This document shows positions 21,249 through 45,764 of a stretch of DNA of 64,000 bases, in pieces. The DNA is taken from the NCBI RefSeq assembly GCF_024494355.1, contig NZ_JAKNQY010000015.1:1-64000 (forward strand), written 5' to 3'. This DNA is from Pseudomonas sp. Q11 (lineage in GTDB: Bacteria > Pseudomonadota > Gammaproteobacteria > Pseudomonadales > Pseudomonadaceae). Below the pieces are notes generated by a model, which was not told where the DNA came from, did not search any database, and saw only the letters and a list, made by a program, of their open reading frames with translations. The translations under genes were made by a program, and so were the position numbers. The stretch's first letter is position 1. The number at the start of each line of letters is the position of its first letter.

Positions 21249-21305
21249 AAGTGATCCGAGGCATCTGGTAAGCCTAGGACGGCCTCTCTGTCGAGGATCA
21301 CTTCA
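21249..21305 (+). promoter_or_regulatory. Leader hairpin covering the rcpA ribosome binding site
   Basis: AAGTGATCC (21249-21257) is a perfect complement of GGATCACTT (21295-21303), and inside it GAGGC (21258-21262) can pair with GCCTC (21282-21286). The 3' arm contains the Shine-Dalgarno sequence GAGGA and ends one base before the rcpA ATG. Folding would hide the ribosome binding site, so translational control is plausible. This is read from sequence; function is inference. Confidence 0.5.
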
Positions 21306-22528: not shown

Positions 22529-22584
22529 GCCGGCGCCTGAAGTGCAAGCATCCACGTGTTCAACCTGATACGAGGGGACATTCA

Positions 22585-23295
22585 ATGAAAGCGGTGATCG
22601 CGATAGCCGCAACGGTGCTGCTGGTCGGCTGCGCCAGCAATGGCGTGGCTTCACGCCCGGCCAGTTGTGCCAAGCCCGGATCCGATCAGGAACTGGCGCT
22701 GAACCTGGCCGATGACATGGCCAATGATGGTCGTTTGTACGCCAGCCTGGCGAACCTTGAAGGTCTGCCGGAGGATCTGGTCCAGGTCCGCCTGCGCAAG
22801 GCGCGCGTGCTGCGCCTGATGGGACGTAACGAAGCAGAGCCGTTGTACCAGAGCCTGCTCGGCACTTGCCTGGCCGCCGATGGCGAGCATGGCCTCGGCC
22901 AGTTGGCTGCCGCCAGACATGATCATGCTGGCGCCACCGAACACCTTGAGCGCGCGGTGAAAATGTCCCCCACCGAAGGGAAAATCCGCAATGACCTGGG
23001 GGTTGTCTATCTCAATCAGCGACGGATCCCTGAAGCCCGCTTCGAGTTCATGACCGCCATGGAGCTCAGACAGTCAGACTCACTGGCCGCCTTCAACATG
23101 GTGACGCTGCTGATTTACCAGGACAACTGGAAGCAGGCAGCCGAACTCGCAAATATGGCCAACCTGAGCCCTAAACAAGTGGCCGATGCTCAAGCCCGGG
23201 CGGAAAAAATCAGAGGCTCGACCCCTACCGGGGTGACGTCACCCGCGAACCGTTTGACCGATATGGCCGACGCTTCATCCGATGCGGTCAAGTAG
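22585..23295 (+). CDS. tadD: TadD-like TPR lipoprotein
   Basis: A 236-residue lipoprotein. The ATG at 22585 starts a signal sequence with lipobox LVGC (Cys near residue 16). Tetratricopeptide-like helices follow, including AARHDHAGATEHLERAVKM and IRNDLGVVYLNQRRIPEARFEF. TadD is the pilotin-like TPR lipoprotein that helps the RcpA secretin assemble in the outer membrane. It follows rcpA by 56 bp. The open frame extends upstream to overlap rcpA, but the lipoprotein signal fixes the start. Confidence 0.9.
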   Translation: MKAVIAIAATVLLVGCASNGVASRPASCAKPGSDQELALNLADDMANDGRLYASLANLEGLPEDLVQVRLRKARVLRLMGRNEAEPLYQSLLGTCLAADGEHGLGQLAAARHDHAGATEHLERAVKMSPTEGKIRNDLGVVYLNQRRIPEARFEFMTAMELRQSDSLAAFNMVTLLIYQDNWKQAAELANMANLSPKQVADAQARAEKIRGSTPTGVTSPANRLTDMADASSDAVK

Positions 23296-23317
23296 AGCCT
23301 TACGAGGAGTCCAAGAG

Positions 23318-23587
23318 ATGAAAACCAGACAACTGTTGATCGTGTGCATGACTTGCCTGTCCACCACCGCCTGGGCCATTGAACCTGGCCCCTCTTCGGC
23401 CGCGCAACAGGGCACGGAGAGCTGGATGCAGTTGCAGATTCGCGGGGTGGTGGCCTCAACTCACCTGCAAACCGCCTCGGCCAGCGAACGCGAACTGGCC
23501 ATGCAGCGCTGGCTCAATAGTTTCAATTACCCGATCCCGGAATTCTTCGAACAGGACTCGGGAGGGGAAATCACCAGCAGCAACTGA
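23318..23587 (+). CDS. DUF3613 small exported protein of the Tad locus
   Basis: An 89-residue protein with a cleavable signal (MKTRQLLIVCMTCLSTTAWA, cut near residue 20) and a short periplasmic part containing ESWMQLQIRG and MQRWLNSFNYPIPEFF, which matches the DUF3613 family as I recall it. These genes are commonly linked to tad genes in Pseudomonas and relatives; no function is established. The ATG is 22 bp after the tadD stop with AGGAG just upstream, so the three plus-strand genes form one operon. Confidence 0.8.
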   Translation: MKTRQLLIVCMTCLSTTAWAIEPGPSSAAQQGTESWMQLQIRGVVASTHLQTASASERELAMQRWLNSFNYPIPEFFEQDSGGEITSSN

Positions 23588-23606
23588 CACACAGTGGAAA
23601 ACCAAT

Positions 23607-23674
23607 AGATCGCAGCCTTCGACAATCCCTACATCCGATCCGGGGTAGGCATTGTCGAAGGCTGCGATCTTTTG
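23607..23674. terminator. Long hairpin ending the rcpA-tadD-DUF3613 operon
   Basis: AGATCGCAGCCTTCGACAAT (23607-23626) is perfectly complementary to the 20 bases at 23651-23670, with an inner CCTAC/GTAGG pair and a following TTTT. It belongs by sequence to the GATCGCAGCC repeat family and is placed as a terminator. Confidence 0.7.
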
Positions 23675-23923
23675 GTTTGCCTTGCATCAGGTCGAGCGCC
23701 CCTGTTTGTGGCGAGGGATCTATCCCCGTTGGGTTGCCCCACCCAGGAAGCACATCCCCATTCAAACTGAGTCTTGCGCGGGGCCGGCCAGTGGGTGACA
23801 TACCGTATCCTGGTTTTCAGGACCGCTACGCGGCCCAACGGGGTAGTGTTCGGTTGGGTATGGACTTTGAGAGGGTGACCTTTGTGTGCCCGGCTGGGTG
23901 TTGGCTTTCAGGCAGTCATCATC
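23675..23923. other. Gap between the two convergent Tad halves, no gene seen
   Basis: The sequence contains degenerate GGCGAGGG...TCCC repeat fragments and the imperfect pair CCCGTTGGG / CCCAACGGG. Short frames here have no start context or recognisable product. I see nothing else. Confidence 0.5.
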
Positions 23924-24013
23924 GTGGCGAGGGAGCTTGCTCCCGCTCGGCTGCGTAGCAGCCGCAAAACGGGGCCGCTGCGCTGCTCGAGCGGGAGCAG
24001 GCTCCCTCGCCAC
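23924..24013. repeat. Inverted GTGGCGAGGGAGC repeat pair
   Basis: GTGGCGAGGGAGCTTGCTCC and GGAGCAGGCTCCCTCGCCAC form the outer arms, enclosing a short GC-rich loop. A single or degenerate copy of this family also occurs around 46460-46492 and 37127-37152. Confidence 0.8.
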
Positions 24014-24043
24014 AGGCTTGTCCAGATGGGGTCGTACGCGCCT

Positions 24044-25009
24044 CTACATATTTCCAAAGGCCCTGAACACACCAATCATGGCGGGGCCGATGGCGACCAG
24101 GAAGAAGCTTGGCCAGAGGCAGAAAATCAGCGGAAAGATCAGCTTGGTGCCGATTTTGGCGCCCATTTCCTCCGCCGCCTGGGTGCGCCGGTCACGAAAC
24201 TCATCGGCGTAGATGCGCAGGGTGTCGGCCACGCTGGTGCCGAAGCGGATGCTCTGGGCCAACAGGCTGACCAGGCCCTGGATATCGTCCAGGCCGGTGC
24301 GCAGGGCCAGTTGCTTGAGAGCATCGGTGCTGGTGATACCGGCGCGGATCTGCGCGTTCACCAGAGCCAGCTCTTCGGCCAGCTCAACCTGGCTGACCGA
24401 CATCTCTTCAGCCACCCGTTCTATGGTGGTGGGCAGGGCCAGGCCTGACTCGACGCACACCACCATCAGGTCCAGCGCATCGGGAAATGCCGCCCGCAGC
24501 CGGGCTTGTCGCGCCTGTTTGCGCTTGCCGACGTAAAGCGCCGGCAGCAGCCATCCAATACCCGCCATCAGCGTCGCCACCAGCAAACCGACAATCAGGG
24601 ACACCTTGATCAGCGGCAGTAGCAGCAACGTAACGCCAAGCAGCAGCAACGGCAGCATCAGGCGCACGGCCCAGTACATCTGCACCGCCGAGGCGGAACG
24701 GTAGCCGGCGTGTGTGAGCAGGGTCAGGGTGGCGCTGGCCTGGGTCGGGTCAGTCGCTGCGAAACGCTGGCCGACCCGTTCCAGCAAGAGTTGCAGGTTA
24801 CCTGGCGCCTCCTGCCCTTGCGTGCTGCCGGAATACCCCCGTTTGATCAACGCCAGGCGCCGTTGCACCGGGTCCTGCAGGCCCAGCATCAGCAGGATCA
24901 TGGCGACGACCGCCAGTACCGTACTGAGGCCGATCACGGCGATGAACAACAGCCGTGCCGCCTCCTCGTTTCCCGTAAACCGACTGAACAACCCGAGCAG
25001 AAAATCCAT
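24044..25009 (-). CDS. tadC: Tad inner-membrane platform protein TadC
   Basis: A 321-residue type II secretion F-domain protein with membrane helices near both ends and the conserved central segment ALDLMVVCVESGLALPTTIERVAEEM. TadB and TadC form the inner-membrane platform on which TadA drives pilin assembly. The ATG at 25009 (MDFLLGLFSRF) is preferred over an upstream in-frame start at 25030. It is the last gene of the minus-strand Tad operon, 27 bp after tadB. Confidence 0.92.
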   Translation of the reverse strand: MDFLLGLFSRFTGNEEAARLLFIAVIGLSTVLAVVAMILLMLGLQDPVQRRLALIKRGYSGSTQGQEAPGNLQLLLERVGQRFAATDPTQASATLTLLTHAGYRSASAVQMYWAVRLMLPLLLLGVTLLLLPLIKVSLIVGLLVATLMAGIGWLLPALYVGKRKQARQARLRAAFPDALDLMVVCVESGLALPTTIERVAEEMSVSQVELAEELALVNAQIRAGITSTDALKQLALRTGLDDIQGLVSLLAQSIRFGTSVADTLRIYADEFRDRRTQAAEEMGAKIGTKLIFPLIFCLWPSFFLVAIGPAMIGVFRAFGNM

Positions 25010-25036
25010 GACTGATACCTCTCGCCGCAAGGGCGC

Positions 25037-26023
25037 TTAAACCTGGATCCGGATGATTTTTCGTATCCAGAGAATCCCGAGCAACATGGCGCAGAACGCG
25101 CCGATGATCAGCTTGTGACCTATAGGGTCATTGATCAGCACCGGCATATAGCTGGGGCTGGTGAGCACAATGGCGATCGCCAGCACGAAGGGGATCGCCA
25201 CCAGTACCCAGGCCGACATGCGCCCTTCCGCCGACAGGGTCCGGATCTTGCGCTGGAAGCGGAAGCGCCCGCGGATCAAGCGGCTCAGGCGCTCCAGTAC
25301 TTCGGTCAGATTGCCACCGGTTTCGCGGTGGATAAGTATGGAGGTCACCAGCATCATCACCGTCATGCTCGGCATGCGTTCCAGGAGGCCGAGCATGGCC
25401 CGGCGCACATCGTTGCCATAGTTGATGTCGGCGAAGGTCATGCCGAACTCCTGGGCGACCGGGCCCTTATGCTCCTCGGCGACCAGACGCAGGGTTTCGT
25501 TGAACGGGTGCCCGGCGCGCAAGGCCCGGCACATGGCGTCCAGTGCATCCGGCAAACCTTCCTCGAAGGCGGCGAAACGCTTGTTACGGTCACGCATGAT
25601 TTTCAGCACCGGCAGCCAGGTCACCGCAAAGGCCACCAGCAGCGCCATCCACCATACCGGCCAGAACATCAGCACCACGGCACCGGCCGCCACGCCCAGG
25701 GCCAGCCCGAGCACCATCACCCGATAAGCCCGGTATTCGTGGCCGGCCTGCTCGATCAACTGAGTCAGGTTGGCCATGAACGGCAACTGTTCAAGCCGGG
25801 CTTCCAGGGGTGACAGGCGCGTCAGGTACTTCTGCCGCAATACGGTCTGCATGTTGGGCAGATGGTTGGCTTTCTCCAGCACATGCAGGCGCCCACGGAT
25901 GCGCTTGCGCATTTTGCCGGCCTCGCCGAACACCGGCACCACCACGCCTTGGGACAGAAGGAAGACGGCGATGAACACCATGGCGAGAAAAATCAGGATG
26001 AACTCACTGGGGATGTTGTTCAT
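25037..26023 (-). CDS. tadB: Tad inner-membrane platform protein TadB
   Basis: A 328-residue F-domain protein with an N-terminal helix ([20 protein letters not shown]), two central helices and C-terminal helices. The conserved segment [25 protein letters not shown] and [19 protein letters not shown] are typical of TadB. The ATG at 26023 overlaps the tadA stop by four bases. Works with TadC and the TadA ATPase at the inner membrane. Confidence 0.93.
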
Positions 26024-27453
26024 GACGACCGGGCCTCCATCCACTCAGGGCGGAACAGGGTCAGCGGCAACTCGATGCCGCGCCTGGCCAACACATCGCG
26101 AAAGGCCGGGATCATGCCGCTGGGCCGATAATCCCCCAGCACCTCGCCGTTTTCACCGATGCCTTGGCGCGAAAAGGAGAAAATTTCGGTCATGGTGATG
26201 ATCTCTCCTTCCATGCCATTGATCTCCTGCATGCTCACCACCCGTCGTTTGCCGTCTTCTTGACGCTCCAGTTGGATCACCACATCGATGGCGGAGGCAA
26301 TTTGTTGACGCATGGCCTTGATCGGAAAAGTTGCGCCGGTCATCGACACCATGTTCTCGATTCGCCCCAACGCATCACGCGCTGTATTGGCGTGGATCGT
26401 GGTCAGGGAGCCGTCGTGACCGGTGTTCATGGCGGTGAGCATGTCCAGCGCTTCAGCGCCGCGCACTTCGCCGATGACAATGCGGTCCGGTCGCATCCGC
26501 AGGCTGTTGCGCACCAGCTCCCGCTGACTCACCTCGCCGCGCCCCTCGATGTTCGAAGGACGGGTTTCCAGGCGTACCACGTGAGGTTGCTGCAGCTGCA
26601 GTTCGGCCGAATCCTCGATGGTGACGATGCGTTCGTTGTGGGGGATGAAACTGGACAGCACGTTGAGCATGGTGGTCTTGCCGCTGCCGGTGCCGCCGGA
26701 AATCAGCACGTTCAAGCGCCCACGGACAATCGCCTTGAGCAACAAGGCAATGGCCGGGGTCATGGTGCCAACCTGGATCAGGCTGTCGGTATTGAGCAGG
26801 TCGATCGCAAAGCGACGGATCGACATGCTCGGACCGTCGATGGCCAGTGGCGGGATGATTGCGTTGACCCGTGAGCCGTCCTTGAGACGGGCATCCACCA
26901 GAGGTGACGACTCATCGATACGCCGCCCCAGGCTGGAGACGATGCGATCAATGATGTTCAGCAAATGCTGGTCGTCGCGAAAGCGCACGTCGGTTCTTTG
27001 CAGCTTGCCGAAGCGTTCGACATAGACCGAGGCAAAACCGTTGACCAGGATATCGGACACGCTATGGTCGGCCAGCAATGGTTCCAAAGGCCCCAGACCG
27101 AGCACTTCGTCGGTGATCTGCTTGATGATCAACTGACGGCTGGCAGAGCTTACCGGCGCCGAATGCTCATCGAGCAAACGCAGGCAGATATCACGTATCT
27201 GCCTCGTGGCTTCGGCCTGCTCGAGAGAGTCGAGCAAGGACAGGTCCATGACCTTGAGCAGCTGCTGGTAGATTTTTTCTCGCCACTGGGCCTCCACCGG
27301 GGTCACCTGGCTTCGGGTTTCGTAGAGCACGTCGGGGATGGCATGCTCCCAGGCCATCAATTGCTGGGTGGGATCCGGCAGGCTGTCGCCAGCCAGCTCA
27401 ATGGCAGGTTTACCGGACTGTTTACGCAAGCGGTTGCGGAAGTCGCTGATCAT
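26020..27453 (-). CDS. tadA: TadA/CpaF-family secretion ATPase
   Basis: A 477-residue cytoplasmic hexameric ATPase powering Flp pilus assembly. An N-terminal domain leads to Walker A GGTGSGKT (residues 253-260), Asp box region around [16 protein letters not shown], Walker [10 protein letters not shown] (324-332) and His box [12 protein letters not shown] (345-356). All catalytic boxes are intact. It follows tadZ by three bases and overlaps tadB by four. Confidence 0.96.
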
Positions 27454-27456
27454 GGG

Positions 27457-28677
27457 TCACCCCCCGAAAAAACGGTTGAAGGCACGTTTGAGCAGGCCTT
27501 TGTCTGCGGCCATCTGGTGACCGACCAGGTCTTCGGTCAAATCGCGCAGGGCAACGGTGATGGCCGCCCTCGGCGCATGCAGCCCCAACGGCACGCCAGT
27601 GTTCTGACTCTGGCTGACCAGGTTGAAGTCATTGGGTAATTTCGACAGGTTGGTGCACCGCAGGGCTTCTGCGACATCCTTGAGGCTGACCGCGGCCGCC
27701 TTGTCATAGCGGTTGACCACTATCTGCAACTGGTCCCCGCGCACGCCCAGGTCCTCGCGAAGGATCCGCACCAGCGCGCTGGCATCGCGCAGATGGCTGA
27801 CGCTTTGTTGAACCACCACGTAGACCCGGTCGACCTGCTCCAGCACGGAACCGGTGAGGTGGTCGATCTGGCGCGGCAGGTCCACTACCACCCAGTCATA
27901 GCTGGCACGGGCCAGTTGCAACAGGGCGTCGAGTTGTTCCGGCTGAGCGTCCTGTGGCAGGCACAACTCACCGCTGCGGCCACCCAGCACGTGCAGGGTC
28001 GGACTGAAGTGACTGCAAAAACCCCGCAGGGCAATGCTGTCCAGGTCCTCGACCTGTTGCAGCACTTGCAGATGGCTATGGGACTGGGCGACATCCAGGT
28101 AATGGGTCACGCTGCCAAATTGCAGGTCCATATCCAGCAACAGGGTGGTACCTGCCTGGGCGCTGAGTTGCTGGGCCAGGTTGCAGGCCACCAGGGTTGC
28201 GCCGGAACCACCCTTGGCGCTGATCACGGCGACCAGTTTGCCCTCGGCGCCTTGACCGACGCGGACCTCCGCAACCAGACGATTCAAGGCGGCCACCAGT
28301 TCCGTCTCGGCGAAAGGTTCAGGCAGCACGTCCCGGGCGCCGGCCTGCATCGCCAAGCGCATGCCTTCCTGCTCGCCCATCAGACCGCACACCAGCATCG
28401 GTGGACGCTCATGGGCCGGACGCTGCAGCAACGCCGCCAACTCTTCGCGCCACAAGTGACTAACCCGCAACAGCAGCAGGTCGGGCATCCGCTCCAGGCC
28501 GTAGAGCGGATCGACATGGCCGTTGCTCACCAGACGTGTGCTCACTTCCAGGCAAGGCATGCGCTGGCAGACACATTGCAAATCACGCAGGGACGAAGCG
28601 TCACGACTGCTGATCAGTAGCCGCAGCCCGGGTTTGCCGGTGATGGTGGAGAGTGGAGTTTCCCTGGTATTCAGCAT
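27457..28677 (-). CDS. tadZ: TadZ/CpaE-family localisation ATPase
   Basis: A 406-residue protein: residues about 18-135 form an atypical receiver-like domain, and residues 148-400 a ParA/MinD-type ATPase with the deviant Walker A ISAKGGSGAT (152-161) and LLLDMDLQFGSV. TadZ positions the Tad machinery at the pole in other bacteria. The ATG at 28677 overlaps the preceding TadE-like gene by seven bases; the frame upstream of it is a shadow of that gene. Confidence 0.92.
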   Translation of the reverse strand: MLNTRETPLSTITGKPGLRLLISSRDASSLRDLQCVCQRMPCLEVSTRLVSNGHVDPLYGLERMPDLLLLRVSHLWREELAALLQRPAHERPPMLVCGLMGEQEGMRLAMQAGARDVLPEPFAETELVAALNRLVAEVRVGQGAEGKLVAVISAKGGSGATLVACNLAQQLSAQAGTTLLLDMDLQFGSVTHYLDVAQSHSHLQVLQQVEDLDSIALRGFCSHFSPTLHVLGGRSGELCLPQDAQPEQLDALLQLARASYDWVVVDLPRQIDHLTGSVLEQVDRVYVVVQQSVSHLRDASALVRILREDLGVRGDQLQIVVNRYDKAAAVSLKDVAEALRCTNLSKLPNDFNLVSQSQNTGVPLGLHAPRAAITVALRDLTEDLVGHQMAADKGLLKRAFNRFFGG

Positions 28678-29165
28678 GGTGTGATCTCCCCGGAATCGGA
28701 ATGACGCCCAAGGCTTTCGCGTGGCAACGTCGCCCGGAACGCGGGCAAGGTAATGGGCACGCCAAACCCGGGAATGAACAGATTGAAAACGAAGTTCTGC
28801 ACGCTCAACTGGACGTAGCGGATCGCGCGAAATCCGTTGGCGCTGACCGTGTCGGCGGGGTTCGCCACCACCGCGCCGTTCACATCCAGATAGGTCAGCG
28901 CCAGGTTCGAGGTGGCGAGGCTGCTGATCAGTTGACTGGTGCCTGCGTCCGTCGCGGCGTTGAAGATGGCCCGGCGCAACACCACCGGATCGTTGATATT
29001 GCACACCGCCGCCAGGCGCGCGCCGCGCCGCGCCGCTTCATCCAAGGCGCTGGCAGTGAAGTACAGCCGGCCCATCTCCACCACACCAAACAGCAGGATG
29101 AACACCAGCAGGCCAACGAAGGCGAACTCCACGATATAGGTGCCTTGCATGTGCTTGTTGTTCAT
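28671..29165 (-). CDS. TadE-family minor pseudopilin (TadF position)
   Basis: A 164-residue TadE-like protein. A short N-terminus MNNKHMQGTYIVEF leads into a hydrophobic helix (FAFVGLLVFILLFGVVEMGRL), the class that TadV-type peptidases process at G-TYIVE-like sites. Its ATG overlaps the upstream TadE gene stop by one base. Minor pseudopilins are thought to initiate or cap the pilus. I do not assign tadF firmly because TadE and TadF look alike. Confidence 0.85.
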   Translation of the reverse strand: MNNKHMQGTYIVEFAFVGLLVFILLFGVVEMGRLYFTASALDEAARRGARLAAVCNINDPVVLRRAIFNAATDAGTSQLISSLATSNLALTYLDVNGAVVANPADTVSANGFRAIRYVQLSVQNFVFNLFIPGFGVPITLPAFRATLPRESLGRHSDSGEITPC

Positions 29166-29644
29166 CACAACGCCCTCATGACGGTGGTCGCGACCAGCGG
29201 GATACCCAGCGCAATGGCACTGCCGAAAAAACCGGGAATTGTTCCGCCGCAATTGCCCGCTCCAATCACCGGGCAAAAGGTGTAGGTGATGGTGACACGC
29301 ACATGGTCAACACCCACCGCCGCGACCTCCACGTTAGCCGTGGTCAAGCCGGCCACCACAGCGGCGCCGGCCTGGCTCGGGGTGCCATACACCGCGACGT
29401 TTTTCGTCTGGGTCTGCAGCGTGTTGTTCAGGGTGATGCTGCCCAGGGTGGTATTCCAGGCCTGGCCGGCGACGAATCGATTGGCATCACGACTGGCCTG
29501 TAGCAGCACGTTGTATTGGAAGAGCATGCGGCCGAACTCGCCAAAAGCCAGCAACAGCAGCAACAACAACGGCAATACCAGGGTGAATTCCACCAGCGCC
29601 ACGCCTTTCTGGGCCTGCGCTGGTTTGAAATGGGCAAGTCTCAT
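29165..29644 (-). CDS. tadE: TadE-family minor pseudopilin
   Basis: A 159-residue protein with the TadE signature: KGVALVEFTLVLPLLLLLLL near residues 13-32, with the processing site before VALVEF and the conserved Glu. A Cys pair is in the C-terminal FCPVIGAGNCGG. It lies eight bases after tadG and just before a second TadE-like gene, so the pair may act together as pilus initiators. Confidence 0.88.
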   Translation of the reverse strand: MRLAHFKPAQAQKGVALVEFTLVLPLLLLLLLAFGEFGRMLFQYNVLLQASRDANRFVAGQAWNTTLGSITLNNTLQTQTKNVAVYGTPSQAGAAVVAGLTTANVEVAAVGVDHVRVTITYTFCPVIGAGNCGGTIPGFFGSAIALGIPLVATTVMRAL

Positions 29645-29652
29645 GACGCCTC

Positions 29653-30990
29653 CTACGAGTCGGTGCTCGGAGTGCCGCTGCCGTTGAGATAGGTTTTGTA
29701 GAGCTGAATGATCTGCGGGCCGGTATCGCTGACCGGCGTGGGGCCGGGCACATTATCGCCTTCGCATTCCTGGACGAACTGGCCAAAGATGATGGAGTCC
29801 GAACCTCCGCCATTAACCGGCTGCACAACGAAATAGCAGCCAAAACCCAGGACGGGAATCGAGGTAGAACCGCTCAGTTTGCCGGTGCAGTCACCGATCA
29901 CGATCTTGAGCATCCGCCGTTCGAAAACCCCGTTGCCCTCGCAGCCATTGCCAGCTCCGGCCACACAGGCGGCGACCGTTGTTCGCCAGTCGTTGTAGTC
30001 CAGAATTGCCTCGCCGCCGGCCGTGAGATCGCCGTTGCTCGAAGTAATGGGCTGTCCTTTGTATTGCGCCTGGGAGAGCGAATCGTCATAGGTCATCGCC
30101 GGGTTGCTCGAAGTGGTGACCAGGTCGGGTGGATAGTCCGAAGAACTGACCGGGCCGTTATAGATACCGAATCGCGTGTTCAAGCCCTGGGACGTCGGGC
30201 CGGCTTTGTTGCCCGGCGCGGTCTGGACGTTGTCCCCGACACTGCGGCAGACCGAACCCCCGCCCGCCAGGTCTTCGCGCACTGCGCTGCCGCCGGAGCC
30301 GAAATCGAGCAGTTGGAAATTGCCCGGGCCGATGGGCGAAGTGTTGCCCGCCGCCGTCTTCAGCACCGTCAGGTCGCCAAAGCGGTAACTCCAGAAATTC
30401 CCGGCAGCGGGGTCGTATTGGCTGGTGTCGCCGCAGACCATCAAGGGCGCAAGATCACACGGAGCCGTCGGGCTGGGGCCTGCGGTGGCGAGCGCCGCCA
30501 CGGCCTTATTGCCCAGACCGGCACTGCCCATCGCTTGCACGAAACTCCAGAAAAAACCGCTCAAGCGATAACTGGACACCGACACTCGCACGTATTTGGC
30601 ATCCGCAGGCCCAGGATAGGAGAACGGGCCATAAACGCTGCTGGCCAGCTCCACCACGGCGAACGCACCCGGGTTGCCGGCGACAGCGGTTGCCAATTCA
30701 GCGTTGCCTGCCGCGTCGGCATTTCGTGTCAGCGTGTCCAGGGCGGCGGCCCGAGTCGTGCTGGCCATGTTGAGACCGCCCGTCACCTGGCTCAGGGTCT
30801 TGGCGCCGCTCAGGGCGGCGGCATCCACGGCATTCTGCAGGCGGGTCTTGTTCAGTAGCATGTGTCCGCCATCCAGGGCCAATGCCGCCATCATGGAAAT
30901 CGCCATTAACGCGATCACCATCAATACACTCACTGCTCCTTCCTGGCGCCGAAACGTCGCAGTGACAGGCTGCCGGATACTGGGATTCAT
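29653..30990 (-). CDS. tadG: TadG-like pilus assembly protein
   Basis: A 445-residue protein with one N-terminal helix preceded by basic residues (RRQEGAVSVLMVIALMAISM) and the TadG-type segment LDGGHMLLNKTRLQNAVDAA, then a large periplasmic domain rich in Gly, Ser and Asn, with several Cys residues. TadG is a membrane-anchored, often surface-linked, part of the Tad apparatus. The ATG at 30990 is preferred; the frame runs upstream to 31053 without a good start. Confidence 0.88.
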   Translation of the reverse strand: MNPSIRQPVTATFRRQEGAVSVLMVIALMAISMMAALALDGGHMLLNKTRLQNAVDAAALSGAKTLSQVTGGLNMASTTRAAALDTLTRNADAAGNAELATAVAGNPGAFAVVELASSVYGPFSYPGPADAKYVRVSVSSYRLSGFFWSFVQAMGSAGLGNKAVAALATAGPSPTAPCDLAPLMVCGDTSQYDPAAGNFWSYRFGDLTVLKTAAGNTSPIGPGNFQLLDFGSGGSAVREDLAGGGSVCRSVGDNVQTAPGNKAGPTSQGLNTRFGIYNGPVSSSDYPPDLVTTSSNPAMTYDDSLSQAQYKGQPITSSNGDLTAGGEAILDYNDWRTTVAACVAGAGNGCEGNGVFERRMLKIVIGDCTGKLSGSTSIPVLGFGCYFVVQPVNGGGSDSIIFGQFVQECEGDNVPGPTPVSDTGPQIIQLYKTYLNGSGTPSTDS

Positions 30991-31067
30991 GATCGAGCCC
31001 TCGTTTGCCGACGCGTGAGGATCGGCATCGCCATGGCCGAAGGGGCCAGGCATTTTTCTACGCGTTT

Positions 31068-31880
31068 TCAGCGAACGTTGACGACACTGCTTTCGATTCC
31101 ACGGATCACCGTGATCCCGCTGCCCTGCGCTTTGGGGCTGCGCTGCACCACGGGCCTGGGCATCGCTGCGGGTGCCACCGCCATCACCGGAGCAGGAGGG
31201 GGCGCCACGACCACGGTTTTTTTCTCCAGGTTCAGCGGGTTACGCAAGGCCAGTTGTAACTTGCCTTCAGTCTGCGCAGTCACCAGCGCCTCGGCTTCAG
31301 TGGCCGACATTTCCAGCGTCACGGCCCGTACCACCACCGGCTGGGTCTTGTCGGTGCCCGCCGTCTGATCCACCGCCAGCACCCGCAGGTTTTCAAGGAT
31401 GGTCCGGGACACGGCGTTGTTACTGCCGGCGCTGGTGGTCTTGGTTGCCAGCACGTCGACCCGGTTCCCGGGCAACAGGAACCCACCCACACCGACCACA
31501 TCATCGACCCGTACCGATATGGCGCGTTTGTCAGGATCGATCAGAGACGCCAGGGTGCTGCCACCCAGGTGCTCACTCAGACGCGCACCCCGGACGATGT
31601 CTCCGCGCAGAATGTCGAACGTCGCGATCTTGCCCACCGCCTGTTCGCTGGAATCAAAGGCATCGTCCGGGATCGTATCCATGGGCATGCGCACGGTCGT
31701 GACCTGTTGGGCCTCGACCATCTGCCCGAAAGGAATTGGCACGGTGGCTACCACCACGCTTCGCAAGTGGTCATCGGGTTTGGCGTTAAGTCGTGCGCTC
31801 AGCCAGGAGTCAGCCATCCATGCGGCCCCCAGGCCCATTACCAGGGAAACGCCAATCAGCGAAAGCGTACGAGAGCTCAT
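31068..31880 (-). CDS. rcpC: Flp pilus assembly protein RcpC/CpaB
   Basis: A 270-residue periplasmic protein anchored by an N-terminal helix. A SAF domain (about residues 40-105) contains VPIPFGQMVEAQQVTTVRMP, and the RcpC/CpaB domain follows with VGVGGFLLPGNRVDVLAT. CpaB associates with the secretin and links inner and outer membrane parts. In many loci it sits directly before rcpA; here the next gene is tadG and rcpA is on the other strand. It starts 15 bp after the AAA+ ATPase gene. Confidence 0.92.
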   Translation of the reverse strand: MSSRTLSLIGVSLVMGLGAAWMADSWLSARLNAKPDDHLRSVVVATVPIPFGQMVEAQQVTTVRMPMDTIPDDAFDSSEQAVGKIATFDILRGDIVRGARLSEHLGGSTLASLIDPDKRAISVRVDDVVGVGGFLLPGNRVDVLATKTTSAGSNNAVSRTILENLRVLAVDQTAGTDKTQPVVVRAVTLEMSATEAEALVTAQTEGKLQLALRNPLNLEKKTVVVAPPPAPVMAVAPAAMPRPVVQRSPKAQGSGITVIRGIESSVVNVR

Positions 31881-31895
31881 GTCGGTATCTCCGAT

Positions 31896-33224
31896 TCAAA
31901 GGAAGTCGAGCTGAACGAAGTAGTTGTGCCAGGCCCATTCCAACTCTTGCGGCAACAAAGGGCCTGATCCGCCCAGGTAACGCTGGCGGTCGAGCGCCAT
32001 GTTCAACAAGTCACGGGGATGGCAAGGCACCAGCGGCATGCCTTCGCCTGCATAAAGCTGCTGCAGCACATAGCGCACCAGCGACGGATCATGGGGAATG
32101 CCCAGGCGTTCGCACTCCTGGCGCCAGATGCGTTCGTATTCTTCGGGCTTGAGATAACCGAATTGCACCTTGTAGCCAATGCGGCGCAGAAAGGCCTCGT
32201 CAGCCAGTTCCAGGGGGTTGAGGTTGGTGGAAAACACCAGGACCAGATCGAACGGCAACTCGCAATGGCGACCACCGCCCAGGTTGATGAAGTCGCGCTT
32301 TTCTTCCATTGGTACGATCCAGCGGTTGAGCAGCTCGGCCGGGGCCATGCGCTGGCGGCCCATGTCATCGATGATGAACAGGCCGTTGCTGGCCTTGAGT
32401 TGCAATGCGGCCTGGTACTGGCGGGTAAAGGGGTCGTAGCGAACATCCAGCTGTTCCATGTTCAACTCCCCGCCCGTGATGACGATCGGGCGTTTGCAGC
32501 ACAACAACCGACGGTCGATGCCTTCATTGAGCATCAGATTGTTCGATTGGCTCTTGTCATCCAGGCGCTGATGCACCTGTGGGTCGTAGATCTCGATCAC
32601 CGACTCGTTGATGACGATCGCATGGGGCACCCAGATGGCCTCGGCGAACAGCCGGATAAGACGACTGCTGACGTATGTCTTACCAGTGCCCGCCGGGCCG
32701 TAAATCATGATCGCCCGCCCGGAATTCAACGCCACGCCCAACTGATCGAGCATGCCTTGCGACAGCACCATGCCGGCTAGGGCACGTTGCATGTCGGTGG
32801 CGGTAATACGCCCATGGTGAATGGTCTGGATCTTGATCAGGGATCGATAGCTACTCACCGGAAAAGGTGCCGCACCGATATAACCACTGCGAGCCAGGGC
32901 ATCGCGGGCGGCACTGCGGCCACGTTCGGTCAAGCTGTAACGCAAGGCCTGTACGCTCGTCTGCCCGAGCTGGCCGAGTACTTCGACCCGACCGTCCTTG
33001 CGCAGGAACGCCAGGACTTCTTCCAGTACCGCACCGGTCAGCGCCATGCGCTCCACCAGCCGTGGCAGGTCCAACACCCCGGCGTCGTGCAGATGCTTGC
33101 AGACCAGCTCGCCGAGAAAACTGTCGCTCAGGCCAGTGTCTTGAATCGTGCATGGCTGAGGTGCCAGGCGTTGCACCGCTTCCCGTTCACTGGGGTAGGC
33201 ATCACTATCGTTGATGACGTGCAT
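31896..33224 (-). CDS. AAA+ ATPase with N-terminal winged-helix-like region, in the Tad operon
   Basis: A 442-residue protein not among the core Tad genes. Residues ~30-110 look like a winged-helix/effector-type domain (VCKHLHDAGVLDLPRLVERM, LRYSLTERGR). Residues ~165-440 form an AAA+ module with Walker A GPAGTGKT (176-183), Walker B LFIIDD (282-287), sensor 1 FSTN (331-334), a candidate arginine finger FLRRIG and sensor 2 HPRDLL. This resembles MoxR-like ATPases. It lies two bases after tadV and 15 before rcpC. It may remodel a Tad component or regulate expression; neither is shown. Confidence 0.85.
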   Translation of the reverse strand: MHVINDSDAYPSEREAVQRLAPQPCTIQDTGLSDSFLGELVCKHLHDAGVLDLPRLVERMALTGAVLEEVLAFLRKDGRVEVLGQLGQTSVQALRYSLTERGRSAARDALARSGYIGAAPFPVSSYRSLIKIQTIHHGRITATDMQRALAGMVLSQGMLDQLGVALNSGRAIMIYGPAGTGKTYVSSRLIRLFAEAIWVPHAIVINESVIEIYDPQVHQRLDDKSQSNNLMLNEGIDRRLLCCKRPIVITGGELNMEQLDVRYDPFTRQYQAALQLKASNGLFIIDDMGRQRMAPAELLNRWIVPMEEKRDFINLGGGRHCELPFDLVLVFSTNLNPLELADEAFLRRIGYKVQFGYLKPEEYERIWRQECERLGIPHDPSLVRYVLQQLYAGEGMPLVPCHPRDLLNMALDRQRYLGGSGPLLPQELEWAWHNYFVQLDFL

Positions 33225-33226
33225 GA

Positions 33227-33757
33227 CTAGACTCCCCAGCCGTCGGCAACCAGCTGCCAGTAGACGCTGTTCAAGGTGCCGATCAGGATCGCGATCGAAT
33301 AAGGAAAAGGTTTGCCGGCCACTTCATCCGCAGTAGGCGCCAGGTAAGCCTGGGCCCGCACGATCAACCAGTAACGCTGGAGGGTCTGGAGCAACTGACC
33401 GCGGGCCAGCACGATCAGGAAACCGCACACGCCACCGGCAATCAGGCTGAACAGCGCAGCCCACAAGGCGTAATGAACCGGCAGGAAACTGCCCACCATG
33501 GCCATCAACTTGACGTCACCGGCCGCCATGCCGCCCACCGCATACATGGGTAAAAACAGCGCGAAACAGATCAGCATCCCCAGCAGGCTGTCACCCGTTC
33601 CGCTGATCCCGCCTATATAAGTCTGACCGGCCAAGCCCAAGGCCAGGCCTAACAGGACCAGCGTGTTGGGGATGCGGTGGCGAAGCAAATCGCTCACCAC
33701 CGCCACGCCTAGCAGTCCCAGCAGCAGTACCGTCGACACCAGCAATTCCATGGACAT
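33227..33757 (-). CDS. tadV: Prepilin peptidase of the Tad system (TadV/FppA type)
   Basis: A 176-residue A24-family aspartic protease with about six helices. The two catalytic aspartates lie in VVSDLLRHRIPN and MAAGDVKLMAMVG; the second motif reads AAGD rather than GxGD. The short length without the N-methylating domain matches TadV/FppA. It would cleave the Flp leaders and TadE-like pseudopilins. The ATG at 33757 has GGGAG seven bases upstream. It directly follows the two flp genes. Confidence 0.92.
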   Translation of the reverse strand: MSMELLVSTVLLLGLLGVAVVSDLLRHRIPNTLVLLGLALGLAGQTYIGGISGTGDSLLGMLICFALFLPMYAVGGMAAGDVKLMAMVGSFLPVHYALWAALFSLIAGGVCGFLIVLARGQLLQTLQRYWLIVRAQAYLAPTADEVAGKPFPYSIAILIGTLNSVYWQLVADGWGV

Positions 33758-33783: not shown

Positions 33784-33978
33784 TTAGCAGGCCACGTTAC
33801 CGTTGACGGCCTGGCACAGCGCACGGATCTTGGTGTCCACCGCGCCGCCGAGAAGGACGAAGGCTGCCGCCACCAACACGGTGATCAAACCACCCGCTAC
33901 GGCGTATTCAACAATGGTCAGGCCGTCTTCATCTTTGGCGAACCGGCTGATCGCAGTTCTTATTGTGTGCAGAGTCAT
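33784..33978 (-). CDS. flp: Flp-family type IVb pilin, copy 1
   Basis: A 64-residue prepilin. A basic leader ending in KDEDG (cleavage after Gly19) is followed by LTIVEY, the conserved Flp Glu-Tyr pair, and a long hydrophobic helix. Cys55 and Cys64 could form a C-terminal disulfide. The ATG at 33978 has GAGGTGA upstream; a GTG three codons earlier is in frame. The mature part differs from copy 2 only at residue 48 (Asp here, Asn there), while the leaders differ at seven of 19 positions. Confidence 0.95.
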   Translation of the reverse strand: MTLHTIRTAISRFAKDEDGLTIVEYAVAGGLITVLVAAAFVLLGGAVDTKIRALCQAVNGNVAC

Positions 33979-34133: not shown

Positions 34134-34328
34134 TCAGCAGGCGACGTTGCCGTTGACGGCCTGGCACAGCGCGCGGATTTTGGTATTCACGGCACCGCCC
34201 AGAAGAACGAAGGCGGCGGCCACCAACACCGTAATCAACCCACCGGCCACGGCGTATTCCACAATGGTCAGGCCGTCTTCATCTTTGGCGAACTTCAGCA
34301 CCGAAGCCTTGATTGTTTGAAGAGTCAT
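34134..34328 (-). CDS. flp: Flp-family type IVb pilin, copy 2
   Basis: A 64-residue prepilin almost identical to copy 1 in its mature part (LTIVEY start, Cys55 and Cys64). The leader is MTLQTIKASVLKFAKDEDG. The ATG at 34328 has GAGGTGC upstream, and the frame before it is only a shadow. It is the first gene of the minus-strand Tad operon, 155 bp before copy 1, and is divergent from the AraC-type regulator, so the operon promoter should lie within 34329-34620. Confidence 0.95.
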   Translation of the reverse strand: MTLQTIKASVLKFAKDEDGLTIVEYAVAGGLITVLVAAAFVLLGGAVNTKIRALCQAVNGNVAC

Positions 34329-34577
34329 TTTGCGCACCTCATCAGGGTTGTTTTCAGGGGCAGTACTTTTGCAACTGCCTGATGCAACCCTAGTCAGCGG
34401 GTGGGGATAGCCGTTAGGAGGATTTTGCGTATCGCTAGGATTATTTTGCGCGGGGGGCCAGGCATATATTGCAATTGCAACTCGCAATGATTTGCGCTCT
34501 GCCGTTTTTGAACTTGCGGCGCTTTAAAAAAAGCTTTTTATAAAAAATTATTCGGCGAAGTGATGGCACATTGGCAA
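34329..34577. other. Divergent control region between flp and the regulator, AT-rich
   Basis: A markedly AT-rich stretch (A and T runs around 34525-34550) lies among GC-rich genes, as expected for a pilus promoter region or a site for nucleoid proteins such as MvaT. I could not identify convincing promoter boxes. No gene is seen. Confidence 0.5.
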
Positions 34578-34599
34578 TACTGCTAGCTTAAGAGCAGTA
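34578..34599. promoter_or_regulatory. Perfect 7-bp dyad upstream of the atypical regulator
   Basis: TACTGCT (34578-34584) and AGCAGTA (34593-34599) are perfect inverted repeats around an 8-bp centre that itself contains the palindrome CTTAAG. The site is 21 bp before the regulator ATG, well placed for autoregulation or control of the divergent flp operon. Function is inference. Confidence 0.45.
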
Positions 34600-34620
34600 G
34601 TACCGCTGAGTGGTAGGCAC

Positions 34621-35490
34621 ATGACGCCGAATCTGACCAGAAAGCCAAAGCTGTTGTGGTTCGATCTGACTCACGATCGGTCCACCCCGGAACTTGTCAG
34701 CCAGTTCGAGGACTCTTGCGACTGTACCCAGGCAAAAGACGCCCTGCTGCCCGGCGGGGAACAGGCAGACATGATCTGCATCCACTTCGATCGCCCGGAC
34801 ACGCCGGGCCTGAGGCGGTTACTGGAGATCAAGCACACCGTTCCCGCCACACCCATTACCATGTTCACCGTGCAGCACTCTGAGGAACTGGCGGTATGGG
34901 CCATGCGCTCTAGCGTTTGGGAATACATGGTATTGCCCCTGTCGGCCACGGAGAGGAAGCGCTACCTGACGGCCCTGGTGCAATTATGCGAGCTACGTCG
35001 CCACACCAGTGGCCCGCGCAAGACTTCGCTGATCGACCACGCGCCAACCCTGCCGGACAGCATTCGTCTGACCTCCGGACACCAGAAACACCAGGCCCTG
35101 AGCCACATCATGCTGTACATCGACCAGCATTTTCGCGACAGCATCGATCAGCGGGACCTGGCCAAGCGATGCGGCATGACCACGTTTCGCTTCAGCCGTG
35201 TGTTCAAGGAAGCCAACGGGCTTGGCTTCACCGATTACGTGCTGAACAAACGCATGAGCTTTGCCAAGGAACTGCTCGACAATAGCCAGATGCCTATCAC
35301 CAGCATCGGCTATGAGGCCGGTTTCAAGGATCCCTCCTACTTCGCCCGCGCCTTCAAGCAATACGCCAACTGCACACCCAGCGAATACCGCTTGGCTCGG
35401 CAGAAGCGGACAATGACTCCCGCGCCCGAGTCGCCGGAAGACGAGAGTGCAGACGTACTAGAGAGTCTGGTGGATAGCCTCGAAGGTTGA
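34621..35490 (+). CDS. Atypical response regulator: receiver-like domain plus AraC-type DNA-binding domain
   Basis: A 289-residue protein. Residues about 10-125 have a receiver-like pattern (LLWFDL, MICIHFD, ITMFTVQ, YMVLPL), but the fifth strand has Leu-Pro in place of the invariant Lys-Pro, so canonical phosphorylation is doubtful. Residues about 158-262 are an AraC-type double helix-turn-helix (DLAKRCGMTTFRFSRVFKEA, ITSIGYEAGFKDPSYFARAF). It is divergent from the flp-tad operon and is the likely local regulator. In P. aeruginosa the Tad locus is instead linked to PprAB, where PprB has a LuxR-type domain. Confidence 0.88.
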   Translation: MTPNLTRKPKLLWFDLTHDRSTPELVSQFEDSCDCTQAKDALLPGGEQADMICIHFDRPDTPGLRRLLEIKHTVPATPITMFTVQHSEELAVWAMRSSVWEYMVLPLSATERKRYLTALVQLCELRRHTSGPRKTSLIDHAPTLPDSIRLTSGHQKHQALSHIMLYIDQHFRDSIDQRDLAKRCGMTTFRFSRVFKEANGLGFTDYVLNKRMSFAKELLDNSQMPITSIGYEAGFKDPSYFARAFKQYANCTPSEYRLARQKRTMTPAPESPEDESADVLESLVDSLEG

Positions 35491-35548: not shown

Positions 35549-35624
<76 letters not shown>

Positions 35625-35627
35625 AAA

Positions 35628-35703
35628 TGGCGTCCCCTAGGGGACTCGAACCCCTGTTACCGCCGTGAAAGGGCGGTGTCCTAGGCCACTAGACGAAGGG
35701 GAC
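35628..35703 (-). tRNA. tRNA-Glu (TTC), copy 1
   Basis: A 76-base cloverleaf on the minus strand, acceptor stem GTCCCCT/AGGGGAC, anticodon loop CCTTTCAC with TTC, T-arm GGTTCGAGTCC and encoded CCA. It lies three bases from the neighbouring tRNA-Gly. Confidence 0.97.
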
Positions 35704-35808
35704 ACGCTGCCCGGAACACATGGTGTGTGTTCCAGTGCCCAGATCCGTACCCGAAGATATCGGTTCTGGTTTCACTCAGCCCTGCCCGAAGGCAACGCTG
35801 TTTAAAAT

Positions 35809-35884
<76 letters not shown>

Positions 35885-35886
35885 AT

Positions 35887-35962
35887 TGGCGTCCCCTAGG
35901 GGACTCGAACCCCTGTTACCGCCGTGAAAGGGCGGTGTCCTAGGCCACTAGACGAAGGGGAC
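35887..35962 (-). tRNA. tRNA-Glu (TTC), copy 2
   Basis: Identical in sequence to the copy at 35628-35703 and the first tRNA after the promoter. The Glu-Gly spacing here is two bases. Confidence 0.97.
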
Positions 35963-44718: not shown

Positions 44719-45764
44719 TGCGCTTGCGCCTCGACACCTTGTTCGGCCGCCTGTTTGGCGTGCTGTTGTTGGCGATCATCCTGGCGCACCTGTTGGCCTT
44801 TGCCTGGTTTTTTTATTACGGCCCACCACCGCCCCCCGGGCCACCGCCAGAATTTTCCCGGCAAGGCGAAGGTCCAGCGCGCTTTAACCCGCCCCCTCAA
44901 CACACTCAACGTCCCTGGTTCGGAGGCCCGGTGGTACCGCTGACCTTTCAGTTCGTGTGTCTGATCATCGCCGCCTGGTACGGTGCAAAACTGCTGACCC
45001 GGCCTATCCAGCGCCTGAGCGATGCCGCCGAACGCCTGAGCGAAAACCTCGACAGCCCACCGCTGGACGAAACCGGCCCCCGGGAAGCCCGCCAGGCTGC
45101 CCATACGTTCAACCTCATGCAACAGCGAATTCGCGAGCAGGTGCAGCAGCGTTCGCGCATGCTCGGTGCGGTGTCCCACGACCTGCGCACTCCGCTTTCA
45201 CGGCTCAAGCTGCGCCTGGAACAGATCGGTGACATCAAGCTGCAGGGCCAGATGCGTCAGGACCTGGACGATATGATTGGCATGCTCGATGCCACCCTGA
45301 CCTATTTGCACGAACAGCGCACCAGTGAAGCGCTGCAATGGATGGACGTGCAGGCCCTGGTGGAATCATTGAGCGAAAACGCCCAGGACCAGGGCGCCGA
45401 TGTGCAGGTCAGCGGCGCCTGCGCCCCACTGCAGGTGCAACCCATGGCACTGCGCTCGTGCCTTAACAACCTCATCGACAACGCGCTGCGCTATGCCGGC
45501 CATGCCTTGGTAACCCTGCAAGACCAGCAACATCAGGTACTGATCCGGGTCATCGACCACGGCCCCGGTATCGCGGCAGATAAACGCGAAGCGGTGTTCG
45601 AACCCTTCTATCGCCTGGAAGGCTCACGCAACCGCAACTCCGGCGGTGTCGGCCTGGGCATGACCATCGCCCGTGAAGCCACCGAACGCCTGGGCGGGCA
45701 GTTGAGCCTGGAAGAGACGCCGGGGGGTGGGTTGACGGCAGTGATCCGCTTACCGCGCACCTGA
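44718..45764 (+). CDS. Sensor histidine kinase with proline-rich periplasmic loop
   Basis: A 348-residue kinase. Helix 1 is at about 11-33, a short periplasmic loop at 34-72 is rich in Pro and Gly (YYGPPPPPGPPPEF), helix 2 is at about 73-92, then HAMP, HisKA with AVSHDLRTPL (His154), and HATPase with NLIDNALRYA, DHGPGI and GGVGLGMTIA. Partner of the regulator immediately upstream. Such a small loop seldom binds a ligand; sensing through the membrane, metal, or a partner protein is more likely, as inference. Confidence 0.92.
   Translation: MRLRLDTLFGRLFGVLLLAIILAHLLAFAWFFYYGPPPPPGPPPEFSRQGEGPARFNPPPQHTQRPWFGGPVVPLTFQFVCLIIAAWYGAKLLTRPIQRLSDAAERLSENLDSPPLDETGPREARQAAHTFNLMQQRIREQVQQRSRMLGAVSHDLRTPLSRLKLRLEQIGDIKLQGQMRQDLDDMIGMLDATLTYLHEQRTSEALQWMDVQALVESLSENAQDQGADVQVSGACAPLQVQPMALRSCLNNLIDNALRYAGHALVTLQDQQHQVLIRVIDHGPGIAADKREAVFEPFYRLEGSRNRNSGGVGLGMTIAREATERLGGQLSLEETPGGGLTAVIRLPRT

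Follow-up and report, generated by a model that had tools for sequence, protein, structure and literature searches.

A pseudo-receiver/AraC-type regulator and a likely direct-repeat operator at the flp promoter of type-B Tad pilus loci in Pseudomonas

Introduction

Which protein acts at the flp promoter of a type-B Flp/Tad pilus locus, through which DNA site, and does its signal arrive by phosphorylation? The question is raised by the window analyzed here, a stretch of 64,000 nucleotides from Pseudomonas sp. Q11 (contig NZ_JAKNQY010000015.1), in which the gene for a receiver-like regulator, hereafter REG, lies next to the flp pilin genes. The type-B Flp/Tad pilus has been described for strain F113, formerly P. 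fluorescens and now P. ogarae, in a paper whose main text does not contain the word AraC (PMC7716237), and the accessible part of PMC10850567 reports that an flp-1 mutant of this strain is poor in attachment, biofilm formation and root colonization. The accessible text of PMC9279365 names AmrZ, FleQ and c-di-GMP as requirements for flp-1 expression in F113 and reports FleQ sites at tadB and rcpA as well as an AmrZ site at flp-1; that text mentions neither REG nor the DNA repeat described below among the flp-1 inputs. The original prediction for this locus held that REG joins a receiver-like domain to an AraC DNA-binding domain, that it may work without phosphorylation, and that a dyad before its start codon faces the flp promoter region, in an arrangement different from that of PprAB.

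The type-B Tad locus and its regulator gene

The window contains two flp genes, a prepilin peptidase gene, an extra AAA ATPase gene, rcpC, tadG, tadE, tadZ, tadA, tadB, tadC, rcpA and tadD, and was classified as a type-B Flp/Tad locus from Pfam, NCBIfam and gene order, set against the description in the accessible part of PMC7716237 and not against the F113 record itself. The flp gene closest to REG is located at 34134-34328 on the minus strand, while the second one, whose start codon is inferred, is located at 33784-33978 on the same strand; both are open reading frames with Flp_Fap matches below the curated cut-off (E 1.1e-4 and 2.6e-4, respectively). The rest of the flp-side cluster (24044-33757, minus strand) encodes the prepilin peptidase (33227-33757), the AAA ATPase (31896-33224), RcpC (31068-31880), TadG (29653-31053), TadE (29165-29644), a TadZ-like protein (27457-29004), TadA (26020-27453), TadB (25037-26044) and TadC (24044-25030). 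Facing this cluster are the genes for the secretin RcpA and a TadD-like TPR protein (21305-23295, plus strand). The tad genes of 21305-33757 are therefore arranged in two facing groups, and the operator proposed below stands only on the flp side.

REG is encoded on the plus strand at 34621-35487 (35490 with the stop codon) as an open reading frame of 289 amino acids with an ATG start, supported by Pfam and an alignment of 82 proteins; its closest named relative, in P. tehranensis, has a protein that is 95% identical. A tRNA-Gly(gcc)/tRNA-Glu(ttc) pair occurs twice in tandem (35549-35962) directly 3′ of the gene, on the opposite strand.

The C-terminal part of REG, residues 155-260 (35083-35400, plus strand), is an AraC double helix-turn-helix domain, which matches HTH_18 (PF12833, E 9.5e-22) and HTH_AraC (PF00165, E 4.6e-14), both above the cut-off, and whose fold matches AdpA (Z 16.1), YesN (Z 15.4), AraT (Z 15.3) and AraC (Z 13.3), as well as the MarA fold. 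The N-terminal domain, residues 1-128 (34621-35004, plus strand), is weak in Pfam as a single sequence (Response_reg, 16.1 bits vs a cut-off of 30.2); a profile of 15 REG relatives matches the solved receivers 6oap (E 7.6e-11), PorX (8p6f, E 2.4e-9) and NtrC (E 7.6e-8). The AlphaFold2 model, with a mean pLDDT of 78 and a pTM of 0.48, does not fix the mutual arrangement of the two domains; its receiver part has β1 at residues 10-16, β3 at 51-56 and β5 at 101-104, and is devoid of helix 2. The fusion claimed by the original prediction is thus borne out, by Pfam for the AraC part and by profile and fold matches for the receiver part, and the structural prediction that it had suggested as a check yielded a receiver fold similar to KdpE (Z 13.4, rmsd of 2.3 over 110 residues). 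Across six pairs, dN/dS was 0.13-0.19 for the receiver domain and 0.03-0.13 for the DNA-binding domain. As judged from these sequence comparisons, the pseudo-receiver is degenerate in its chemistry and is under purifying selection, with no decay.

Loss of the phosphotransfer residues

The 82-protein set consisted of the window and 81 loci, one of which (L019) belongs to another family. At the phospho-Asp position, the codon at 34783-34785 (plus strand) encodes His55, which takes the place of the acceptor Asp that closes β3 in alignments with PorX, 3jte and 6oap; the position is His in 81 of the 82 homologues and Gln in the other (L019). The loss of this acceptor was absent from the original prediction, which had pointed to the Lys missing before the Pro of strand five. 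That observation was correct: Leu105 (34933-34935, plus strand) precedes Pro106 in β5 and aligns with the active-site Lys of PorX and 3jte, and the position is occupied by Leu in 80 homologues, by Val in one and by His in one. Of the acidic pair after β1, the alignment with PorX shows just Asp15, the first of the two, to be kept; Asp15 is present in 81/82 homologues and is followed by Leu, Arg, Gln or Thr. Thr83 (end of β4) is kept in all 82 proteins, Cys53 in 81 and Asp57 in 80.

By sequence, REG is a pseudo-receiver, i.e., a protein with a receiver fold that lacks the residues of phosphotransfer (the acceptor Asp, the Lys and one of the acids). Because these losses are conserved and under purifying selection, the phosphorylation-independence of REG in Pseudomonas appears to be well supported, in line with the earlier suggestion, and Asp phosphorylation is very unlikely to be its switch there. 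An HATPase_c scan of the window revealed no histidine-kinase domain encoded within 9 kb of REG, the only two matches being at 45441-45761 and 57187-57534, approximately 10 and 22 kb away; the whole genome has 85 HATPase_c matches, and a distant partner is possible.

The fate of the phosphorylation site was followed in a 34-row family alignment, in which 12 rows were selected from the 81 of Pseudomonas and another 22 were added. It leaves out L132 (shortened frame) and L105; of the 80 Pseudomonas loci, 11 entered the alignment and 69 did not. At residue 55, 14 rows have His, 10 have Asp, six have Glu and four have Gln. The His55 rows are the 12 from Pseudomonas plus L104 and L106 (51-54% identical, same genus), and all 14 have Leu or Val at residue 105; among the other rows, this residue is Lys in 15, His in three and Gln in two. 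Within a single genus, residue 55 is Asp in G704, Glu in G779 and Gln in G089. The promoter layout is retained in the order despite the changes among Asp, Glu, Gln and His at this position, and in a FastTree tree the tad-linked members do not all fall in one clade.

Immediately N-terminal to the predicted β2, REG has the motif Cys33-Asp34-Cys35 (34717-34725, plus strand). Each cysteine is found in 80/82 homologues, with L019 among those without Cys33; among the 81 homologues with His55, Cys33 occurs in 80 and Cys35 in 79. Cys33 is present in 14/14 His55 rows and in none of the 20 other rows of the family alignment, while Cys35 is absent from two His55 rows (L104 and L106). According to the accessible part of a 2025 minireview, how pseudo-receivers are switched is still a mystery, and their inputs include covalent change, multimer state (including redox Cys) and ligand binding; the redox Cys of HP1021-type proteins is at position DD+19, in the α1-β2 loop (PMC12632262). 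Counted from Asp15 or Leu16 of REG, DD+19 is residue 34 or 35, which adjoins or equals Cys35. A rather speculative scenario would have the promoter and the operator persist while phospho-control was lost stepwise, Asp55 giving way to Glu, Gln or His and Lys105 giving way to Gln, His or Leu, with a Cys33/Cys35 thiol switch taking over in Pseudomonas. If true, pilus expression would track the redox state rather than a kinase. The REG family offers a natural series, with Asp, Glu, Gln or His at the phospho-site and one operator, in which the passage from phospho-switch to pseudo-receiver can be addressed.

The dyad before the regulator gene

The regulatory site put forward originally was a perfect 7-bp dyad, TACTGCT-N8-AGCAGTA (34578-34599), located 21 bp before the REG ATG. 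The dyad exists as described; its role as a regulatory site did not stand. Both exact arms occur together in one of 81 upstream regions, that of the window itself, shuffling the 130 bp before the gene base by base gave an arm of at least 7 in 11 of 500 cases, and the dyad is already broken in the nearest relative (L020, protein 95% identical). Because it is intact in only that one upstream region, the dyad is probably due to chance, and we rejected it as an operator; its perfection and its closeness to the start codon are what would speak for an autoregulatory operator facing flp, an interpretation that the comparison of upstream regions makes extremely improbable.

The alignment of the 81 upstream regions revealed a different block, TTGRCAATACT (34571-34581, plus strand), which is conserved, though not in all of them, and is possibly the -10 region of REG itself. 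A FleQ box before REG was also considered and dropped, since the candidate block, GTGATRGCACATTGRCAATACT, has approximately five mismatches, counted by eye, to the published FleQ consensus; according to the accessible text of PMC6120874, a robust FleQ consensus could not be defined.

A direct repeat at the flp promoter

The conserved site is not the dyad by the REG ATG but a tandem direct repeat at the flp promoter, GCAAAANNNTCCTA-N7-GCAAAANNNTCCTA, located at 34415-34449 with a period of 21 bp (repeat stretch, 34412-34450). Read in the flp sense, from 34449 down to 34415, it is GCAAAATAATCCTA-GCGATAC-GCAAAATCCTCCTA, with the upstream half-site 1 at 34436-34449 and the promoter-proximal half-site 2 at 34415-34428, both on the minus strand and both defined from pattern scans, the comparison of loci and the 21-bp period. 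The original prediction did not name this repeat, yet the stretch it proposed for a gel shift (34329-34620) includes it. With up to three mismatches allowed, the full pattern matches the window once and none of 100 shuffles, and a slightly shorter pattern matches the whole genome once. Before rcpA, before the second flp gene and elsewhere in the genome, no operator was found at up to three mismatches.

We compared 81 Pseudomonas loci, i.e., the window and L020-L099 (80 of 92 relatives kept), using the best-matching site in the 2.5 kb before REG. The repeat is present in all of them, with no mismatches in 72 and with one mismatch to the fixed letters in nine. Its edge is 85-97 bp from the flp ATG in 80 loci, where the ATG nearest to 90 bp was taken if several were possible; in L090, the nearer of two sites is 90 bp from flp and the farther one was not placed. 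Between the repeat and the REG ATG, the spacing ranges from 169 to 565 bp; in L078 and L090, which have two sites each, counting the farther one extends this range to 1222 bp. Two spaced flp genes, each with its own site at 86-89 bp, occur in L078 and L103.

Downstream of half-site 2, all 81 loci have a TANNRT box at 21 nt (16 loci) or 22 nt (65 loci), which in the window is the -10-like TAGGGT at 34387-34392 (minus strand), at 22 nt. If TANNRT is the -10 box, this spacing places the end of half-site 2 at about -35. A scan of 34320-34640 detected no sigma-70 promoter, which is weak evidence, as shuffles average just 0.4. We take the TTGRCAATACT block before REG and the CTANNRT of flp to resemble stationary-phase -10 elements, which would parallel the relation of PprB to RpoS. 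On the strength of its conservation and position, the direct repeat is likely an operator tied to the flp promoter.

Co-occurrence within Pseudomonas

Among 249 genomes of the genus, REG (E 1e-40) and the type-B Tad ATPase (E 1e-60) were each found in 49, the same 49 in both cases, and the repeat (up to two mismatches) in 52, namely, these 49 plus G004, G220 and G241 with two mismatches each; the genomes are related, so that these counts are not independent and some co-inheritance of neighbours and promoter is to be expected. As a control, the repeat pattern read backwards gave two matches in the same 249 genomes. The proposed link of REG to flp is thus supported, at the level of sequence, by the conserved direct repeat at the flp promoter and by co-occurrence.

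Some copies of the site lie away from the pilus locus. G181 has a site with two mismatches and a -10-like box before an orphan tadG-like gene (L108, 2556-4033), which is likely a second target of REG; the gene is 63% identical to the TadG of the window and, by eye, adjoins phage-like genes. G227 (L100, 3091-3160) has an exact operator and a -10-like box with neither tadG nor flp behind, located, by eye, between transposase-like genes; this copy is perhaps a leftover of an orphan tadG. A second member of the REG family, 33-35% identical, occurs in each of G182 and G286 (L101 and L102, respectively), with no tad matches in 8 kb; in L101, its neighbours appear by eye to be a transposase-like gene and one whose protein looks secreted.

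Relatives outside the genus

Of 244 genomes of the order, 10 matched the receiver-domain profile (E 1e-20) and 10 the ATPase (E 1e-40), nine being common to both; two of the ten are Pseudomonas. The genome with the ATPase and no profile match at this threshold (G753) has REG next to flp by tblastn (E 3.7e-33, 30% identity), and the one with a relative of REG and no ATPase (G101) has this relative on a 7.9-kb contig without tad matches. We scanned 18-20 kb per locus, with 100 shuffles each, using a weight matrix built from Pseudomonas half-sites only. In all eight order-level tad loci, which belong to four other families and have REG relatives 30-39% identical, the best dimer precedes flp, at 92-128 bp before its open reading frame and in the flp sense; in G713, flp was found as an open reading frame with a pilin motif and not by tblastn. 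The dimer scores were 20.5 (G089), 13.2 (G713), 25.8 (G779), 15.8 (G806), 21.8 (G704), 20.2 (G106), 29.0 (G807) and 7.1 (G753), and were reached by 0/100 shuffles in seven loci and by 1/100 in G753. The period is 21 in G089, G713, G806 and G753 and 22 in G779, G704, G106 and G807, and one half-site is often weak. In G089, G713 and G806, REG sits at the opposite end of the locus and the site is still before flp, indicating that the site follows flp and not the REG gene.

Beyond the order, no clear operator precedes flp in G334, where the best score, 5.0 to 5.3, is before the second regulator; at this locus (L125, 2146-4515), flp is preceded by a tandem of two different REG-family regulators, each of which has Asp55 and Lys105. 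G446, also from another order, has its best site approximately 350 bp from flp and reversed. A class-level search found receiver-domain relatives in 14/369 genomes. The matches other than the four weakest (L120-L123) were followed up, and in seven class genomes, one of them that of L132, no tad matches were found in the 9-17.5 kb read around each relative, indicating that the family at large is not confined to tad.

Discussion

Taken together, the comparisons make it quite probable that REG is a dedicated class-II activator of the type-B flp promoter that acts through the direct repeat and is not gated by Asp phosphorylation. AraC/XylS proteins recognize asymmetric half-sites, often as direct repeats approximately 21 bp apart, and tandem half-sites just upstream of -35 are a usual activator layout among them; AraC on its I1-I2 site is the class II model for REG at flp. 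We infer from the sequences that REG binds the repeat, that the sign is activating and that the pseudo-receiver serves as a non-phosphorylated input or dimer domain. Two REG DNA-binding domains would occupy the tandem repeat, with the promoter-proximal half ending at about -35, and REG would recruit RNA polymerase to an flp promoter without a recognizable -35 box. The output would be set by the level of REG together with a ligand, a partner or the thiol state, and REG may represent a missing step between the AmrZ, FleQ and c-di-GMP inputs and flp.

Several observations count against this interpretation: the lack of a site at the second flp gene of the window, the weak matches in three genomes without REG, the absence of the site in G334 and its reversal in G446, and the period of 22, with one half-site often weak, in four of the eight loci from the order. 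The sequence alone does not reveal the sign of the effect. Occupying a site that reaches to about -35 would also be a way of shutting RNA polymerase out, so that REG might instead repress flp from the repeat until a signal releases it. We consider repression unlikely, given that no recognizable sigma-70 box pair was found (0, with a shuffle average of 0.4), that a poor -10-like box, typical of activated promoters, is kept in 81 loci, and that the half-sites have the activator layout mentioned above. Still less probable is that another regulator binds the repeat and REG merely travels with the locus. The 21-bp direct repeat suits AraC proteins, and it also follows REG into other families. One candidate would be AmrZ, for which the binding site at flp-1 of F113 was reported in the accessible part of PMC9279365; AmrZ, however, is conserved across pseudomonads according to the accessible text of PMC10146422, whereas the repeat follows REG, with 49/49 genomes with REG and three weak matches in the 200 without it.

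The proposed independence from phosphorylation also has to be weighed against an orphan kinase that would still phosphorylate REG, at Asp57 or via a phosphorelay. Such a kinase could be among the 85 HATPase_c matches of the genome, Asp57 is present in 34/34 family rows as well as in 80/82 close homologues, and several relatives of REG retain Asp55 and Lys105. Both of these residues are gone from REG in Pseudomonas, though, and Asp57 can hardly be a substitute for Asp55, as it is conserved even in proteins that still have the latter; moreover, residue 57 is Asn in two homologues (L091 and L093), and the two HATPase_c matches of the window (45441 and 57187) are both more than 9 kb from REG. Phosphorylation by such a kinase therefore seems highly unlikely.

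A conserved W93/R96/W100 stretch in the pseudo-receiver is suggestive of c-di-GMP as a possible ligand. Structures of the receiver-like N-terminus of TadZ (4lda, 4dn6 and 4dad) are among the fold matches of REG, with Z scores tied with those of ordinary receivers; that the pseudo-receiver might pair with this part of TadZ is, on these fold matches, only an idea.

Comparison with known systems

A dedicated activator of type-B Flp/Tad pili was not found in the literature searched, and neither an AraC-type pseudo-receiver nor REG appeared among the matches listed, in a search whose coverage excludes most subscription papers. Nor are we aware that the conserved operator has been described before. 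The control of type-B Flp/Tad pili can be put to a direct test, since the protein is named, the site spans 35 bp and the geometry of the promoter is shared across families.

The accessible part of PMC6821963 describes PprB as controlling flp of the type-A Tad pilus in P. aeruginosa, with RpoS in turn governing PprB during carbon starvation; as with REG, the regulator is encoded in the tad locus. The two systems differ in that PprA-PprB is a two-component pair and in that PprB has a different putative site, GGCTAATAC (PMC6821963, accessible part), whereas the output domain of REG is AraC. The Pfam matches of REG include no LuxR-type family, and no HATPase_c match lies within 9 kb. Proteins of the PprB type join a receiver to a LuxR/NarL-type output. 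The difference from PprAB noted in the original prediction therefore holds, and PprAB belongs to the other, type-A Tad cluster according to the accessible text of PMC7716237. The AmrZ-FleQ-c-di-GMP control of F113, as in the case of REG, concerns a type-B flp pilus operon.

In its architecture, REG resembles the AraC-output response regulators of the YesN/AraT type, which also have a receiver fold and an AraC DNA-binding domain. Unlike these, REG lacks the acceptor Asp and the Lys, has no kinase domain within 9 kb and is located at a Tad-pilus promoter. With the pseudo-receivers FleQ, VpsT, HP1021 and RitR, as covered in the accessible part of PMC12632262, REG shares a receiver-like domain without the phosphotransfer residues and its orphan status, and the DD+19 Cys of HP1021-type proteins is close in position to Cys33/Cys35. 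The output domain sets REG apart, as it is of the AraC type, a word absent from the main text of that minireview. AraC-output response regulators and pseudo-receivers are thus already known; the novelty lies in joining the two in a probable dedicated regulator of Tad pili that comes with a conserved operator, for which no precedent was found in the literature searched.
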